Shown here: positions 8,150-19,339 of the stretch, one piece after another
How positions within the stretch are numbered: position 1 is the stretch's first letter
Layout: every line of letters begins with the position of its first letter
NCBI RefSeq assembly: GCF_026988655.1
Contig: NZ_JALSKT010000073.1
Location: 1 to 37,151 of the forward strand
DNA: 37,151 bases
Direction of reading: 5' to 3'
Source: Sulfurimonas sp.
GTDB lineage: Bacteria; Campylobacterota; Campylobacteria; Campylobacterales; Sulfurimonadaceae
Notes under the pieces: generated by a model
What the model saw: only the letters and a program-made list of their open reading frames with translations
Databases searched by the model: none
What the model was told of the DNA's origin: nothing
Position numbers and translations under genes: made by a program

Positions 8150-8656
8150 ATGGCAACAACTAAATTCAAAGGTACAGACGTAGAGTTATTAGGAAATGAA
8201 GTAAATGTTGGAGATAAAGCTCCTGAAGTTAATGTAGTTAACTCAGATGGTTTAGGTGATGTAAAAGTTGGTGGCGCTCAAGGCGAAAAACAACTAATCA
8301 TCGTTGTTCCTTCATTAGACACAGGTGTATGTGCTACTGAAACTCGTAACTTTAATGCAAAAGCTTCAGAACTTGACGGTGTTAAAACTGTTGTTGTTTC
8401 TATGGACCTTCCATTTGCTGCAGGACGTTTTTGTTCAGCTGAAGGAATCGACAAATTAACTGTTGCTTCAGATTTTAGAAACAAAGACTTCGCTAATGCA
8501 TACGGTGTACTTTTAGGTGGTTCTCCACTTGCTGGTGTAACTGCTCGTGCTATCTTCGTAATCGATGCTGATGGTATTGTTACTTACAAAGAAATCGTTC
8601 CAGAAATCACTGAAGAGCCTCAATATGACGCTGCGATAGAAGCTGCAAAAAAATAA
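8150..8656 (+). CDS. tpx: thiol peroxidase, atypical 2-Cys peroxiredoxin
   Basis: Reduces hydrogen peroxide and lipid hydroperoxides using thioredoxin. Peroxidatic Cys61 lies in SLDTGVCATETRNFN and resolving Cys95 in AGRFCSAEG, the same numbering as E. coli Tpx. The thioredoxin fold continues to the end of the 168-residue protein. I start at ATG 8150 because AAGGAA at 8138-8143 is 6 nt upstream; an in-frame TTG at 8144 would sit on that site. A hairpin follows the gene, so it is probably monocistronic. Its even codon use suggests high expression. Confidence 0.95.
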   Translation: MATTKFKGTDVELLGNEVNVGDKAPEVNVVNSDGLGDVKVGGAQGEKQLIIVVPSLDTGVCATETRNFNAKASELDGVKTVVVSMDLPFAAGRFCSAEGIDKLTVASDFRNKDFANAYGVLLGGSPLAGVTARAIFVIDADGIVTYKEIVPEITEEPQYDAAIEAAKK

Positions 8657-8793: not shown

Positions 8794-9573
8794 ATGAAAA
8801 AACTTATATCAACATTAGCACTCGGTGCAATTATAAGCACAGCAGCAAATGCTGACTTTATAAGGGTTCAGGCTGGTGCAGGGGCATGGAGTTATAAGCC
8901 AAGTGGACTTATTACATACACAGATAATGATGGAACTTTAACGCATGCGTCTTTAGAAAAAGCACAAGTTTCTACCTATGCATGGATTTTTGTAAAGCAC
9001 CCTATTCCTTTAATACCAAATTTGCGACTTGAATATGCAACAGTTCACGATGATGGAAAAGGTTCTGGTTCGTATAATGGTTATACATTTCCAGCTAATA
9101 CACCAACAACTTTAGACCTGACACAATACGATGTTATACCATACTACAACATACTTGATAATACCTTTTGGACAACCATTGACCTTGGAATTGATATTAA
9201 AATCATTGATTCTCAGTTTACAGCTAAAAATGCACAATTAAATGTCAGTGGAATAACTTCTGGTAGTGTGACAAAAGATTATGATGAAAAAGCTACGATT
9301 CCAGTTCCTTTAGCATATGTAAGAGGGCGTGTAGAAATTCCTTTCACTGGTTTCGGTTTTGAGGCGGATGCTAAGTACATTTCTTATGATGGAGATACTA
9401 TATATGATGTCCGTGCGAAGGTTGATTATACTTTAGATTTTATTCCTGTTATACAACCAGCTATAGAAGTAGGATACCGTGTACAAAAGTATGATTTTGA
9501 AAGTGAAGATAAAAAAACAAAAATGAATATGGATTTTGCAGGTGTCTATCTGGGCATGATTGCTAAGTTCTAG
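8794..9573 (+). CDS. TIGR04219-like outer-membrane beta-barrel protein
   Basis: 259-residue exported protein. The signal peptide spans about 1-20 with A-N-A cleavage before DFIRVQAGAGAW. The rest alternates polar and aromatic residues in strands separated by Gly/Asp turns and ends MIAKF with a terminal Phe, the outer-membrane barrel signature. The opening and layout resemble the TIGR04219 barrel family, function unknown; that assignment is from memory. Codons 155-259 and the 90 nt after the stop are repeated identically at 13299-13706. The intact copy is this one. The ancestral neighbour was evidently murB, whose stop would lie 3 nt away in the convergent orientation. Confidence 0.8.
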   Translation: MKKLISTLALGAIISTAANADFIRVQAGAGAWSYKPSGLITYTDNDGTLTHASLEKAQVSTYAWIFVKHPIPLIPNLRLEYATVHDDGKGSGSYNGYTFPANTPTTLDLTQYDVIPYYNILDNTFWTTIDLGIDIKIIDSQFTAKNAQLNVSGITSGSVTKDYDEKATIPVPLAYVRGRVEIPFTGFGFEADAKYISYDGDTIYDVRAKVDYTLDFIPVIQPAIEVGYRVQKYDFESEDKKTKMNMDFAGVYLGMIAKF

Positions 9574-9663
9574 GTTTTATTTTATGAGGTAGTTATTGTC
9601 CATAATGACTATCTCACATTCGAGGCTTACACCAAAGCGCTCTTTTACTCTTTTTTGTGCTGT
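9256..9663. repeat. 408-bp direct repeat, left copy
   Basis: Identical, without gaps, to 13299-13706 (constant offset 4043). It spans the last 105 codons of the barrel gene, the 3-nt junction, and the last 28 codons plus stop of murB. The match ends sharply: base 9255 is A against T at 13298, and 9664 is A against T at 13707. Confidence 0.97.
9577..9663 (-). pseudogene. murB 3' fragment (duplicated tail)
   Basis: The last 28 codons and stop of murB in the left repeat copy, in the same orientation as intact murB at 13620. It has no start or upstream coding sequence, so it is an inert remnant of the duplication. Confidence 0.9.
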
Positions 9664-9744
9664 AATGCAAATGTCTCTTTTTTGAGTCGTTAGTGAAATA
9701 CTTTATTGCTACCATTAGCACATCAAAAATTAATGGAGAGTAAT

Positions 9745-11535
9745 ATGTTTAAATTGTCAATAGCAGCAAGTATTGCATTGGTGTCATTTGTAATGATAGG
9801 TTGTGGTAGTAATGATGCAGCATCTGAGGTTCCTCAAGAGAGTATCGATCAGTTTAAAGCAAGTGTACCTGTAACAGATGCAGAAAAAGCTTCTATTCGT
9901 GTTGCTGATACACTAAATGGCGAGCCGATATCGTATAATACAATTTTAAGAACAGGAAATGTATTAAACGGTGAAACATTTGGTCTTTTAAAAGATATGA
10001 ATGATTCGCCACTTACAATGCAAGACGGAAGCAATTATATTTGTAACGGTCAATTTGGCGGGAGTGGACCGGATCATACCGAGTTTATTGAAAAAGACGG
10101 GAAAATTTTTATGATTACGCAGTTTGAGTGCCAAGTTGGGGCAATTTATCAGGCTGAATTAGAGCAAGACACTGCTACGGGGAAATTAAGTGCAAAAAAT
10201 TTAAAATATATCTCTCAAGCGTCACATCATGGTGGCTATGTACACTGTGCAGGAAGCAAAACACCATGGAACAGTTTCTTAGGAAGTGAAGAGTATGAGC
10301 CAAATGCAGCAGATTTAAATATTACATCAGGATCAATTGATAGCTATTATGATCTTATTGCACCATACTTTGGTGGTGATTTGACACAAGCAAATCCTTA
10401 CTATTACGGATGGATTACAGAGGTCAAAATTCTCAATGCTGCCGGAGATAACAGCTATACAAAACATTACAGTTTGGGACGTTTTTCTCACGAACTTTCA
10501 TTTGTAATGCCTGATGCAAAGACAGTCTACTCAACAGATGATGGAACAAATGATGCATTTTATATGTATATAGCAGACAATGCAAATGATTTAAGTGCGG
10601 GTACACTCTATGCTGCAAAATGGACACAAACTGATTCCAATGCTGCAGGAAAATCTGATATTACCTGGATTAAATTAGGGCACAGTGATGATACAACACT
10701 TAAAGCAATTGTTGATTCAAAACCGCTTTTTGGCGATATTTTTGAAAGCACTGCTCCAAATGAAGATGGAACTTGTGCAACTGGATTTACATCTGTCAAC
10801 ACTGCAGCAGGACATGAATGTCTAAAAGTAAAAGACGCAACAAAAGCAGCATTTTTGGAAACCCGACGTTATGCAGCAATACTTGGTGCAACAACAGAAT
10901 TCAGAAAGATGGAAGGTTTAACATACAACCCAAATGCAAATGTCCTCTACAGTGCCATCAGCGAGATTGCCAAAGGGATGGAAGATAACAAAAAATATGG
11001 TGAGCCAAACACAGGATATGATATCGGAGGAAATAATGATATTACATTAGAGTACAACAAATGTGGTGCTGTTTATGAACATAACTTGGCATCAAATGTA
11101 GAGGATAAAGATGGTGCCGTAATTAACTCTGAGTATGTCATTACAAATATGAATTCAATTATTGCAGGCGAAATGACAACATATGATGAAAACTCGACCT
11201 ATGCAAACAACAGCTGTAATATCAATTCTATTGCAAGTCCTGATAATTTAACATTTGTCAAAGGAACAAATACGCTTATTATCGGTGAAGATACGAGTTA
11301 TCATCAAAACGATATGGTATGGGCGTTTGATGTTGAGAGCAAAAAACTAACAACACGTGTGGCAACTACTCCGTATGGTTCAGAGACAACATCACCAATG
11401 TATCAAGATCCAATAAATGGTTTTACATATATAAACCTTGTGACACAGCATCCTTACGGTGAATCAGATGAAGATAAGGTACAAAGCCCTGATGATGTAC
11501 AGTCATATGTTGGATATATTCAACTTGGAAACTAA
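9745..11535 (+). CDS. PhoX-like (DUF839) phosphatase lipoprotein
   Basis: Predicted extracytoplasmic phosphomonoesterase of the PhoX type, a calcium/iron beta-propeller enzyme. PhoX-like landmarks appear in order: TPWNSFLGSEEYEP, YYYGWITEVKI, LGRFSHELSFV, VYSTDDGTNDAFYMY, TRRYAAILGATTEFRKMEG and SPDNLTFV. The N terminus is a lipoprotein signal with lipobox V-M-I-G-C at Cys20. Classic PhoX proteins use a Tat twin-arginine signal, which is absent. I start at ATG 9745 (GGAGAG at 9735-9740); an in-frame TTG at 9706 would spoil the signal peptide. It lies 3 nt before the next gene, so the two form an operon. I see no clear Pho box or promoter in 9664-9744. Family fairly sure, substrate unknown. 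Confidence 0.75.
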   Translation: MFKLSIAASIALVSFVMIGCGSNDAASEVPQESIDQFKASVPVTDAEKASIRVADTLNGEPISYNTILRTGNVLNGETFGLLKDMNDSPLTMQDGSNYICNGQFGGSGPDHTEFIEKDGKIFMITQFECQVGAIYQAELEQDTATGKLSAKNLKYISQASHHGGYVHCAGSKTPWNSFLGSEEYEPNAADLNITSGSIDSYYDLIAPYFGGDLTQANPYYYGWITEVKILNAAGDNSYTKHYSLGRFSHELSFVMPDAKTVYSTDDGTNDAFYMYIADNANDLSAGTLYAAKWTQTDSNAAGKSDITWIKLGHSDDTTLKAIVDSKPLFGDIFESTAPNEDGTCATGFTSVNTAAGHECLKVKDATKAAFLETRRYAAILGATTEFRKMEGLTYNPNANVLYSAISEIAKGMEDNKKYGEPNTGYDIGGNNDITLEYNKCGAVYEHNLASNVEDKDGAVINSEYVITNMNSIIAGEMTTYDENSTYANNSCNINSIASPDNLTFVKGTNTLIIGEDTSYHQNDMVWAFDVESKKLTTRVATTPYGSETTSPMYQDPINGFTYINLVTQHPYGESDEDKVQSPDDVQSYVGYIQLGN

Positions 11536-11538
11536 AAT

Positions 11539-13284
11539 ATGAAGTTAAAAATATACTCTTTTGCTCCCCTCTTTCTAGGTGGAGCAATTTTTTTACTTTG
11601 CGGTTGTGGTACAAATAGTACTTCAGATAACAATGATAATGTTATCTCAAGTAATATTTCCTATTATACGCTTGATGATGCAAACGGCTATGATATACGG
11701 AATCGTAATGTGTTACATTCAACAGCATATATCGCACAAATGTGTTATACAAAGACTATAGATAAAGACAATATAACTCATAACCCATGCTTTGCATGTC
11801 ATAATAAAAATATCGCTCCAAATTATATTTTTAATAATGACACATTGCAGGAGTTGTATGATTTTCCCTCTCCAGCATTAAAAAATCCATTTTTAAACCA
11901 TTTTAAAGATTTTAGCAATGCAGTTGTACAAATAAGCGATGAAACAATACAGAATTATATACAAACAAGTAACTATTTTGATGAAAATAATTCTATTATA
12001 CTTGCTAAGAAACTACAAAATCTTACACCCCTATGGGATGATAATGATGATGGAATATGGAGTGGATATATTCCAGATTGCTATTACAACTTTGATGATG
12101 AAGGTTTCGATAAAAAAACAGACGGCAGTTACAGTGGTTGGAGAGCTTTTGGCTATATGCCTTTTTTAGGAACATTTTGGCCGACAAACGGCTCAACAGA
12201 TGATGTCTTGATTCGCTTAAATTCTTCTTTTATGAAATTAGATGAAAATGGAAGTTTTAACAAAGAGGTATACAAACTCAATCTAGCAATAGTAGAGGCA
12301 ATGATAAAACGTAAAGATGTTGCCATTGATACCGTAGATGAAACACGCTATGGAGTTGACTTAGACAAGAATGGTGAATTGTCTTCTGCATCTATAATTA
12401 AATATAAATGGGACCCAAAAGATGGTATGTTAATGTATTATATTGGATATGCAAATGAGTTACTAAAAAAAGAAAAGCTTCATATTGCAGCAGGACTTTT
12501 TCCTGAAGGAACAGAGTTTTTGCACTCTGTCCGTTATATTCAAGCTGATAACAATAGCAGTGAAATTTCTTTAAGCCAACGCATGAAAGAGCTTCGATAT
12601 GCTAAAAAAACGATGTGGCTCACCTATGCAGATTTGCAAAATATAGGAATGGCAAAAATTGTAAAAAAAGATTTAGATCCGGATGCTATTGAGGGCTTTC
12701 GCGGAAATTTTGAGAGTGGCTTAGGAAATAATCTTGGATGGGTCTACCAAGGGTTTATTGAAGATAAAAATGGCAACCTTCGTCCACAGAGTTATGAAGA
12801 GACACTCAACTGCATGGGATGTCACAGTGGCATTACCGCAACTGTTGATTCTATTTTTTCCTTTGCAAGAAAATTTGATACACAGGAAAGTTTTCAACAG
12901 GGATGGTACCATTGGTCACAAAAATCACTCAAAGGTATTGCGGAGATGCAGTATAGTGATGGAAGATATGAGTTTAGTAACTATTTACGACTCAATAACA
13001 GTGGTGATGAATTTCGGGAAAATGATGAGGTAATTACAAAGTTCTTTCTCGCAAATGGTGATTTTAATCAAAGTGCTATAACAATACTTCATAATGATAT
13101 CAGTTATCTCCTCTATCCATCATACAAAAGGGCAATAAAGCTCAATAAAGCATATAAAGCTCTCGTAGAGACACAAACATTTTATAATGGAAAAGCTGCA
13201 CATATTTTGCCATTTAAAAATATTTATCAAAAACTTGAAGATTTGCAATCTACCGGAAATGAAAAATATATCATTCCAGAATAA
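11539..13284 (+). CDS. lipoprotein with two CXXCH heme motifs
   Basis: 581-residue protein of no family I can name. Residues 1-23 are a lipoprotein signal ending L-L-C-G-C. Two heme c attachment motifs are far apart: CFACH at 84-88 and CMGCH at 425-429, so it is probably a diheme cytochrome. Asp/Asn-Gly loops such as DDNDDGIWSG (about 167-176) and DLDKNGEL (about 274-281) look like calcium-binding loops. The long region between the hemes resembles nothing I recognise. It follows the PhoX-like gene by 3 nt and ends 14 nt before the right 408-bp repeat. Function unknown; an electron-transfer or oxidase partner of the PhoX-like protein is speculative. Confidence 0.75.
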   Translation: MKLKIYSFAPLFLGGAIFLLCGCGTNSTSDNNDNVISSNISYYTLDDANGYDIRNRNVLHSTAYIAQMCYTKTIDKDNITHNPCFACHNKNIAPNYIFNNDTLQELYDFPSPALKNPFLNHFKDFSNAVVQISDETIQNYIQTSNYFDENNSIILAKKLQNLTPLWDDNDDGIWSGYIPDCYYNFDDEGFDKKTDGSYSGWRAFGYMPFLGTFWPTNGSTDDVLIRLNSSFMKLDENGSFNKEVYKLNLAIVEAMIKRKDVAIDTVDETRYGVDLDKNGELSSASIIKYKWDPKDGMLMYYIGYANELLKKEKLHIAAGLFPEGTEFLHSVRYIQADNNSSEISLSQRMKELRYAKKTMWLTYADLQNIGMAKIVKKDLDPDAIEGFRGNFESGLGNNLGWVYQGFIEDKNGNLRPQSYEETLNCMGCHSGITATVDSIFSFARKFDTQESFQQGWYHWSQKSLKGIAEMQYSDGRYEFSNYLRLNNSGDEFRENDEVITKFFLANGDFNQSAITILHNDISYLLYPSYKRAIKLNKAYKALVETQTFYNGKAAHILPFKNIYQKLEDLQSTGNEKYIIPE

Positions 13285-13298
13285 AATTTATTTTATAT

Positions 13299-13616
13299 AC
13301 TTCTGGTAGTGTGACAAAAGATTATGATGAAAAAGCTACGATTCCAGTTCCTTTAGCATATGTAAGAGGGCGTGTAGAAATTCCTTTCACTGGTTTCGGT
13401 TTTGAGGCGGATGCTAAGTACATTTCTTATGATGGAGATACTATATATGATGTCCGTGCGAAGGTTGATTATACTTTAGATTTTATTCCTGTTATACAAC
13501 CAGCTATAGAAGTAGGATACCGTGTACAAAAGTATGATTTTGAAAGTGAAGATAAAAAAACAAAAATGAATATGGATTTTGCAGGTGTCTATCTGGGCAT
13601 GATTGCTAAGTTCTAG
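13299..13616 (+). pseudogene. 3' fragment of the TIGR04219-like barrel gene
   Basis: Codons 155-259 of the barrel gene at 8794, identical at the DNA level but without signal peptide, start region or ribosome-binding site. A GTG at 13311 could formally start a 101-residue ORF, but it is an internal Val codon of the parent gene and nothing suggests translation. Confidence 0.92.
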
Positions 13617-13706
13617 GTTTTATTTTATGAGGTAGTTATTGTCCATAATGACTATCTCACATTCGAGGCTTACACCAAAGCGCTCTTTTACTCTTTTTTG
13701 TGCTGT
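13299..13706. repeat. 408-bp direct repeat, right copy
   Basis: Second identical copy of 9256-9663. Its left part is a headless fragment of the barrel gene; its right part is the genuine 3' end of murB. Confidence 0.97.
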
Positions 13707-14417
13707 TTCTATAAGGTATATAGCATCTTTAAAGCTTCCATTTCCATGATTGACTAAAAAGTTTGCATGCTCTAGACTAAACTCCATATCTCCAACTCTT
13801 TTTCCTTTTAATCCAACCGCCTCAATTAACCTTCCCGCAAAATCACCCTTAGGATTTTTAAAACAGCTGCCTGCACTTGGAGTAGATGGTTGGTTGGCAC
13901 GCATTTTTTTAAACATAGTGACTCTTTCTTTATCAAAGCCATACTCTAAATGAAAGGCAGCTTCAAGGATAGGTTCATTGATATTTGTAAAACGGTAGCC
14001 AAAGTCAATCTCCTCTTTTGCCTTTTTCCCTGAAAAGCTTGTGATATTTATAAGGTGGTTGAAAATTTCATACTCTTTAAGTCCAGCATTCATAAACACT
14101 AGTCCACCAAGTTTCCCGGGAAGATGAGAAATAAATTCAAAATTTGCTATATTGTGTTTTTTGCAAAAAGATGCAATTTTTCCAGATGGTGTTGCGCCAC
14201 CAATTTTTAGCTGATTGTCTTCAATCTTAATATAATCATACTTTTTTGAAAGCATCATAAGTTGTGGTGGATTGTCACCTATGAGAATATTGTTGCATGA
14301 ACCAATAAGATAACTCTTTGAGATATCTTGAGTTTGTTCATCTAAAAGTAACACCTCATGTGTGCCTCCTATTTTAAAAGAGGAGTATTTGGAAAAATTT
14401 ATGGATTTTGTTTGCAT
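13620..14417 (-). CDS. murB: UDP-N-acetylenolpyruvoylglucosamine reductase
   Basis: Cytoplasmic FAD enzyme that reduces UDP-GlcNAc-enolpyruvate to UDP-MurNAc with NADPH in peptidoglycan synthesis. 265 residues, normal for the short type II forms. The FAD domain starts with SSFKIGG and has LPGKLGGLVFMNAG at about 99-112. The catalytic proton donor, Ser in E. coli, is Cys185 in SAGSCFKNP, a substitution known in type II MurB proteins. The start overlaps the fliQ stop as TAATG. Its last 28 codons lie inside the right 408-bp repeat, and this copy is intact. Confidence 0.95.
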   Translation of the reverse strand: MQTKSINFSKYSSFKIGGTHEVLLLDEQTQDISKSYLIGSCNNILIGDNPPQLMMLSKKYDYIKIEDNQLKIGGATPSGKIASFCKKHNIANFEFISHLPGKLGGLVFMNAGLKEYEIFNHLINITSFSGKKAKEEIDFGYRFTNINEPILEAAFHLEYGFDKERVTMFKKMRANQPSTPSAGSCFKNPKGDFAGRLIEAVGLKGKRVGDMEFSLEHANFLVNHGNGSFKDAIYLIETAQKRVKERFGVSLECEIVIMDNNYLIK

Positions 14418-18398: not shown

Positions 18399-18677
18399 AT
18401 GGATAAAAATGAATTCTTTGAAGAGATAGATACTTCGCAAAGTGTTACACAGAAGTATCTTGGACTCTCTTTAGCAAAGTTTTTTGTCCTTTTTTTTATT
18501 ATAGTTCTCTTGGGTATTTATGTCGGTATATTATTATATGGCTCAAACTCAATTGAAGTACTCTTTGGATTACAAGATTATGAAGATTATCTACAAGATG
18601 AAATAGTTCAGCTCAAAACTCAAAATGCAGAATTGCAAAGAGAGTATTTTGAGCTCAAAGAGATTTCTGCACAATAA
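18399..18677 (+). CDS. DivIC/FtsB-like septum formation initiator
   Basis: 92-residue bitopic membrane protein. A short cytoplasmic N terminus is followed by one membrane helix (about 26-50) and a periplasmic leucine-zipper-like coiled coil (about 60-90), the FtsB/DivIC plan, in which the protein bridges FtsL and FtsQ at the divisome. Sequence is poorly conserved in this family, so the call rests on size, topology and the position after eno. Confidence 0.75.
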   Translation: MDKNEFFEEIDTSQSVTQKYLGLSLAKFFVLFFIIVLLGIYVGILLYGSNSIEVLFGLQDYEDYLQDEIVQLKTQNAELQREYFELKEISAQ

Positions 18678-18721: not shown

Positions 18722-19339
18722 ATGATAAAAATCACTTTCCTTTTATTTTCATTCTCTCTTTTTTTACTAGCACGTGAAAATCCTTTTTTCCCCATTGATT
18801 CAGAATCAGACCTTCCTCTAACAACAAATCAGTTTACTAAAGAACCACAACTCAAACGTGCAACTATGAAACTACCATCAACTGCAAGAGTTATAGAAAC
18901 TGTTACAGTGAAATACAAAAATTTAAATGGAAGCATCTCTCAAAAGAGCATTGAACTTGGAAATAGTATAGATTGGCATCTTCCTTTATTTATTTCTCAA
19001 AATTATGAAATAAATGAAAAACCAAGAGAAAAAAAGATAAAAAAAGTTGCTTCATTAAAGTTTATATCATTCTATGTGGGTGAAAATAAGATGAAAATTC
19101 TTACAAAAGATAAACTGATTAGAAATTTTTTGCTTGTCAAACCTCATAGAATTGTATGTGATTTTAAACGTGATACTGACATAGGTAGTTATACAAAAAA
19201 GATATCTCAAGTTGAGGGTTTTACTAAAATCAATGTGGGTACACATAAAGGCTACTATAGGGTAGTTATTGAGTTAGATGGCTCTTATCGCTATGAAATC
19301 GATAAGAGTAAAGAAGCTTATATTATCAGTTTGATATAG
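18722..19339 (+). CDS. AMIN-domain periplasmic protein
   Basis: 205-residue exported protein. Residues 1-18 are a signal peptide. A proline-rich, low-complexity stretch follows to about 105, then a C-terminal AMIN domain from LKFISFYVGENKMKILT to IISLI, with the repeated beta-strand pattern and the VCDFKRD motif. AMIN domains target proteins to cell-wall or envelope complexes. No amidase domain is fused, so it is probably an accessory envelope protein. Its position after the DivIC-like gene fits that. Its last 14 nt overlap the end of the convergent MORN-repeat gene. Confidence 0.8.
   Translation: MIKITFLLFSFSLFLLARENPFFPIDSESDLPLTTNQFTKEPQLKRATMKLPSTARVIETVTVKYKNLNGSISQKSIELGNSIDWHLPLFISQNYEINEKPREKKIKKVASLKFISFYVGENKMKILTKDKLIRNFLLVKPHRIVCDFKRDTDIGSYTKKISQVEGFTKINVGTHKGYYRVVIELDGSYRYEIDKSKEAYIISLI

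Follow-up and report, generated by a model that had tools for sequence, protein, structure and literature searches.

How does a two-gene operon come to lie between two copies of the same host gene junction without breaking either of the genes that meet there? This question is raised by the window analyzed here, 37,151 bp of contig NZ_JALSKT010000073.1 from a Sulfurimonas sp. draft genome, in which positions 9256–9663 recur at 13299–13706 as a direct repeat that is identical at 408 of 408 positions and offset by 4043 bp. A gapless match with abrupt ends had been reported in a first-pass annotation made from the letters alone, and it was confirmed to the base, with identity stopping abruptly at all four ends. 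The repeat cannot be attributed to chance because, in 50 Markov-shuffled versions of the window, no exact direct repeat was longer than 21 bp. Furthermore, it was the longest within-contig direct repeat detected by BLAST in the 976 kb of the genome that were sampled (the runner-up measured 194 bp at 89 % identity), and the 408 bp sequence does not occur again elsewhere in the assembly. Each copy comprises codons 155–259 and the stop codon of an outer-membrane beta-barrel gene (318 bp), a 3 bp spacer and the last 29 codons of murB, including the stop. Both edges of the repeat fall on codon boundaries, a 1-in-9 coincidence, and a search for structure at the four ends yielded nothing beyond what was seen in shuffles. 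Other repeats of this assembly are approximately 130–143 bp long, 94–97 % identical and present in several places, including a pair in contig C57 (L164:1–143 and 8322–8464) and a separate family in contigs C5, C14, C44 and C55.

The two copies differ in which host gene they complete. The left one provides the 3′ end of the barrel gene (8794–9573, forward strand; TIGR04219 family, NCBIfam E-value 1.1e-57) and is followed up to its border by an orphan murB tail of 29 codons with the stop (9577–9663, reverse strand). The right one begins with a headless barrel fragment, the C-terminal 105 codons and stop (13299–13616, forward strand), and completes murB (13620–14417, reverse strand; NF010479, 9.1e-115). 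Open reading frames and NCBIfam profiles agree that both genes are whole, and the two leftover fragments were found as the first-pass annotation had described them.

The unique sequence between the repeat borders (9664–13298; 3,635 bp) has 81 bp ahead of the first start codon, 14 bp beyond the second stop and two genes; nothing else in it makes a convincing gene. The first (9745–11535, forward strand; 596 aa) encodes a predicted lipoprotein, with a lipobox recognized by eye, that by profile and modeled fold is a member of the PhoX family of alkaline phosphatases. It matches the Pfam PhoX profile with an E-value of 2.6e-22 and a score of 80.1 bits, against a curated cut-off of 24, and its AlphaFold model (pLDDT 83) has as the best PDB match the PhoX of Pseudomonas fluorescens (4a9v; E-value 4.6e-20, TM-score 0.55). 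Residues C168 and E250, the counterparts of C175 and E269 in the solved chain 4amf, do not vary among 15 aligned sequences; a phosphatase activity with an Fe/Ca cofactor, as expected of a PhoX enzyme, is putative. The protein shares the fold and the family match with P. fluorescens PhoX (4a9v/3zwu), but is only 16 % identical to it in the structural alignment and, in contrast to it, is a predicted lipoprotein encoded together with a diheme-cytochrome-like partner. That partner (11539–13284, forward strand; 581 aa), also a putative lipoprotein, carries two CxxCH heme-binding motifs (C84–H88 and C425–H429), both invariant across 17 aligned sequences. Its match to cytochrome P460 (Pfam, 4.6e-07) is confined to roughly 43 residues in the C-terminal part at 30.7 bits (cut-off 27), its relatives score close to or under the cut-off, and the best Foldseek E-value is 0.073. 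Neither insert protein matched a family in the NCBIfam profile search, and promoter and terminator scans across the insert did no better than shuffles. The assembly has a single copy of the pair. A foreign base composition of the two genes was tested and rejected, their codon use and GC3 being ordinary for the host. The open reading frames of the insert include no transposase, integrase, recombinase or mobile-element gene, and the window yielded no pair of inverted repeats, which bears out the earlier claim that the segment has neither a recombinase nor terminal repeats.

The first-pass annotation also proposed a comparison of the barrel/murB locus in relatives, which we carried out on congeners. 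In 15 congeneric genomes, all of other species and with a barrel only about 50 % identical to that of the window, the 3′ ends of the barrel gene and murB face each other across 9–453 bp, and the pair is absent from the junction. These pair-less junctions support the view that the window carries an insertion that duplicated the junction and spared the host genes. No remnant of the pair was noticed when the gaps of G011 (272 bp) and G001 (453 bp) were read by eye. The G001 gap contains another small lipoprotein gene (L009:1041–1495), and therefore the convergent junction may be a site tolerant of insertion. One draft genome, G014, has a second barrel–murB contig and a second enolase that is 56 % identical, both possibly due to contamination (L060, L061, L215).

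Outside the window, the pair was identified in 24 of the 135 Sulfurimonas genomes, with a patchy distribution and mostly at differing loci. Its genes are adjacent in most of 20 public-genome loci (L168–L187), which come from Sulfurimonas, Sulfurovum and Hydrogenimonas as well as from Thiothrix, Bowmanella and Neptunomonas; judging from these sequences, the PhoX/diheme-cytochrome-like pair is a conserved two-gene unit of Campylobacterota and Gammaproteobacteria. In G018, the pair is located between two conserved genes, homologs of those at 18399–18677 and 18722–19339 of the window, about 5 kb from murB, whereas G047 and G070 share a common locus. In G014 it adjoins a response regulator, and in G090 it is found a few genes away from an ABC ATPase (PstB-like by eye), PhoU, a response regulator and a histidine kinase; given the regulator and PhoU neighbors in these two genomes, a role in phosphate scavenging is predicted as likely. 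G082 holds two near-identical copies of the pair in the same ExbB/ExbD surroundings on separate contigs (L101, L102), which represent either a duplication or strain redundancy.

In the tree of the pair, G039, which belongs to another family, falls inside the clade of the window (99/98). In addition, the PhoX-like protein of the window is 69–71 % identical to those of G018, G014, G081 and G090 but 53 % identical to those of G047 and G070, whereas its enolase shows the opposite order, with 89 % identity to G047 and G070 and 85–88 % to the other four. Because the enolase-only species tree is mostly unresolved, the discordance depends on where G039 falls and on these identities. Together with the patchy distribution at differing loci, these observations suggest that the operon has probably moved horizontally, and the host-like codon use and GC3 of the pair fit a congeneric source. 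Flanking duplications were found at none of 12 other pair loci, two of which have little flanking sequence on one side, so that the long target duplication around the pair is a single instance.

Helicobacter pylori and Sulfurimonas belong to the same phylum, Campylobacterota. Insertions with long target duplication are described for H. pylori, chiefly for restriction–modification genes (PMC1643837, PMC3154945, PMC3874152), with Nobusato et al. (2000) and Furuta et al. (2010) given as the sources in PMC3874152 and PMC1643837. The common feature is an accessory gene set that is flanked by long direct copies of the target and has no transposase; in the window as well, the copies exceed the length of at least about 100 bp, the site is single-copy in the 15 congeneric genomes, and neither a transposase or integrase nor inverted repeats were found. 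The differences are that the cargo here is a phosphatase/cytochrome pair rather than restriction–modification genes (which are frequent in H. pylori insertions, not obligatory), that the duplication measures 408 bp compared with lengths "in the order of 100 bp" given for H. pylori, and that the empty site is known here from congeners only and not from a same-species strain. By analogy, the insertion probably belongs to a class already known from H. pylori, with a type of cargo that is unusual.

Collectively, it is probable that the locus represents a real insertion with a long target duplication and an unusual cargo. As for the way in which it arose, the explanation we prefer, and to which we would give about an even chance, is direct insertion of the operon with duplication of 408 bp of the target through two illegitimate joins, which any simple model would need. 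Under this scenario, no recombinase would have been involved when a horizontally moving PhoX/diheme-cytochrome-like operon inserted at the convergent barrel/murB junction, and a 408 bp piece of the target would have been copied onto both sides of it. The duplication would have been made during the joining itself, by a staggered break or by a template switch that leaves the target at 9663 and re-enters it 408 bp upstream, and the two illegitimate joins probably would have involved DNA taken up from a congener. The 408 bp copies could later serve RecA, with loss of the operon or its tandem amplification as the outcome. The far broader proposition that the pair is a recurrent recombinase-free cassette of Sulfurimonas, which inserts with long target duplications and can be amplified or released through them to yield an adjustable dosage of phosphate scavenging, appears quite improbable.

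The same end product would result from Campbell-type integration (insertion–duplication), in which a circle of 4,043 bp, or one that was once larger, carrying the pair and one copy of the junction, enters the chromosome by a single crossover within the 408 bp. This reading yields exactly the observed arrangement and predicts identical copies. A 4,043 bp circle, as put forward in the first-pass annotation, is compatible with the locus. However, a circle that carries the junction itself first requires the same two illegitimate joins, followed by the crossover, which makes this route one step longer than direct insertion. Moreover, the 3,635 bp insert has no replication gene, and no circle, replicon or vector part was found. 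The cytochrome-like gene has no close relative in plasmid, phage or viral collections; its only plasmid matches are about 35 % identical and reside on Pseudoalteromonas replicons of 0.9–1.3 Mb, and a search of viral contigs with both insert junctions detected neither. We therefore regard integration of a circle as unlikely.

Another explanation is that the copy number shown by the contig is not the real one, the DNA containing a tandem array of the 4,043 bp unit or, in a mixed sample, empty chromosomes together with circles or integrated copies. Exact contig-end overlaps of k length are a mark of de Bruijn assembly by SPAdes-type assemblers. In this Sulfurimonas draft of 87 contigs (3.3 % contamination), the ends of four pairs of contigs overlap by exactly 127 bp and no overlap measures 126 or 128 bp, which indicates that a de Bruijn graph was built with k = 127. 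The 408 bp repeat is therefore a single collapsed graph edge, printed twice when the path passes through the loop, and the contig alone fits a single insert, a tandem array and a mixture of empty sites and circles alike. By the same token, the identity of the copies is nearly built in by the assembly and small differences may have been collapsed; the earlier argument that perfect identity implies a very recent event is weakened because the repeat is longer than the k-mer of the assembler. A 3,038 bp contig (C22, L129) is 97.5 % identical to part of contig C55 (L162:13518–16555), which suggests that more than one strain is present in the assembly and fits the mixed version of this explanation. 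Nothing positive speaks against a hidden copy number, which we nevertheless consider unlikely.

An assembly or library chimera, with the pair located elsewhere and wrongly joined here, might be suspected in a draft of this fragmentation and contamination level, but it would require two independent false junctions at the same 408 bp element in the correct orientation, joins at k = 127 require reads that cross each junction, both of which presumably are present in the reads, and the codon use of the pair is that of the host; a chimera thus appears improbable. Finally, a two-step origin, by insertion inside the barrel gene, tandem duplication of the pair with the 408 bp and a later transformation in which wild-type DNA restored the barrel, involves only ordinary steps, and loss of the barrel would probably be tolerated, but it takes three events instead of one, has no intermediate in any congener examined, and is highly improbable.

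If real, direct insertion with target duplication at this locus would be a clear case of the entry of an accessory operon without a recombinase and with no gene broken, and would add free-living Campylobacterota, with a metabolic operon as cargo, to the known range of long-target-duplication insertion. The locus also brings to notice an uncharacterized, conserved PhoX/diheme-cytochrome pair that is common to Gammaproteobacteria too.
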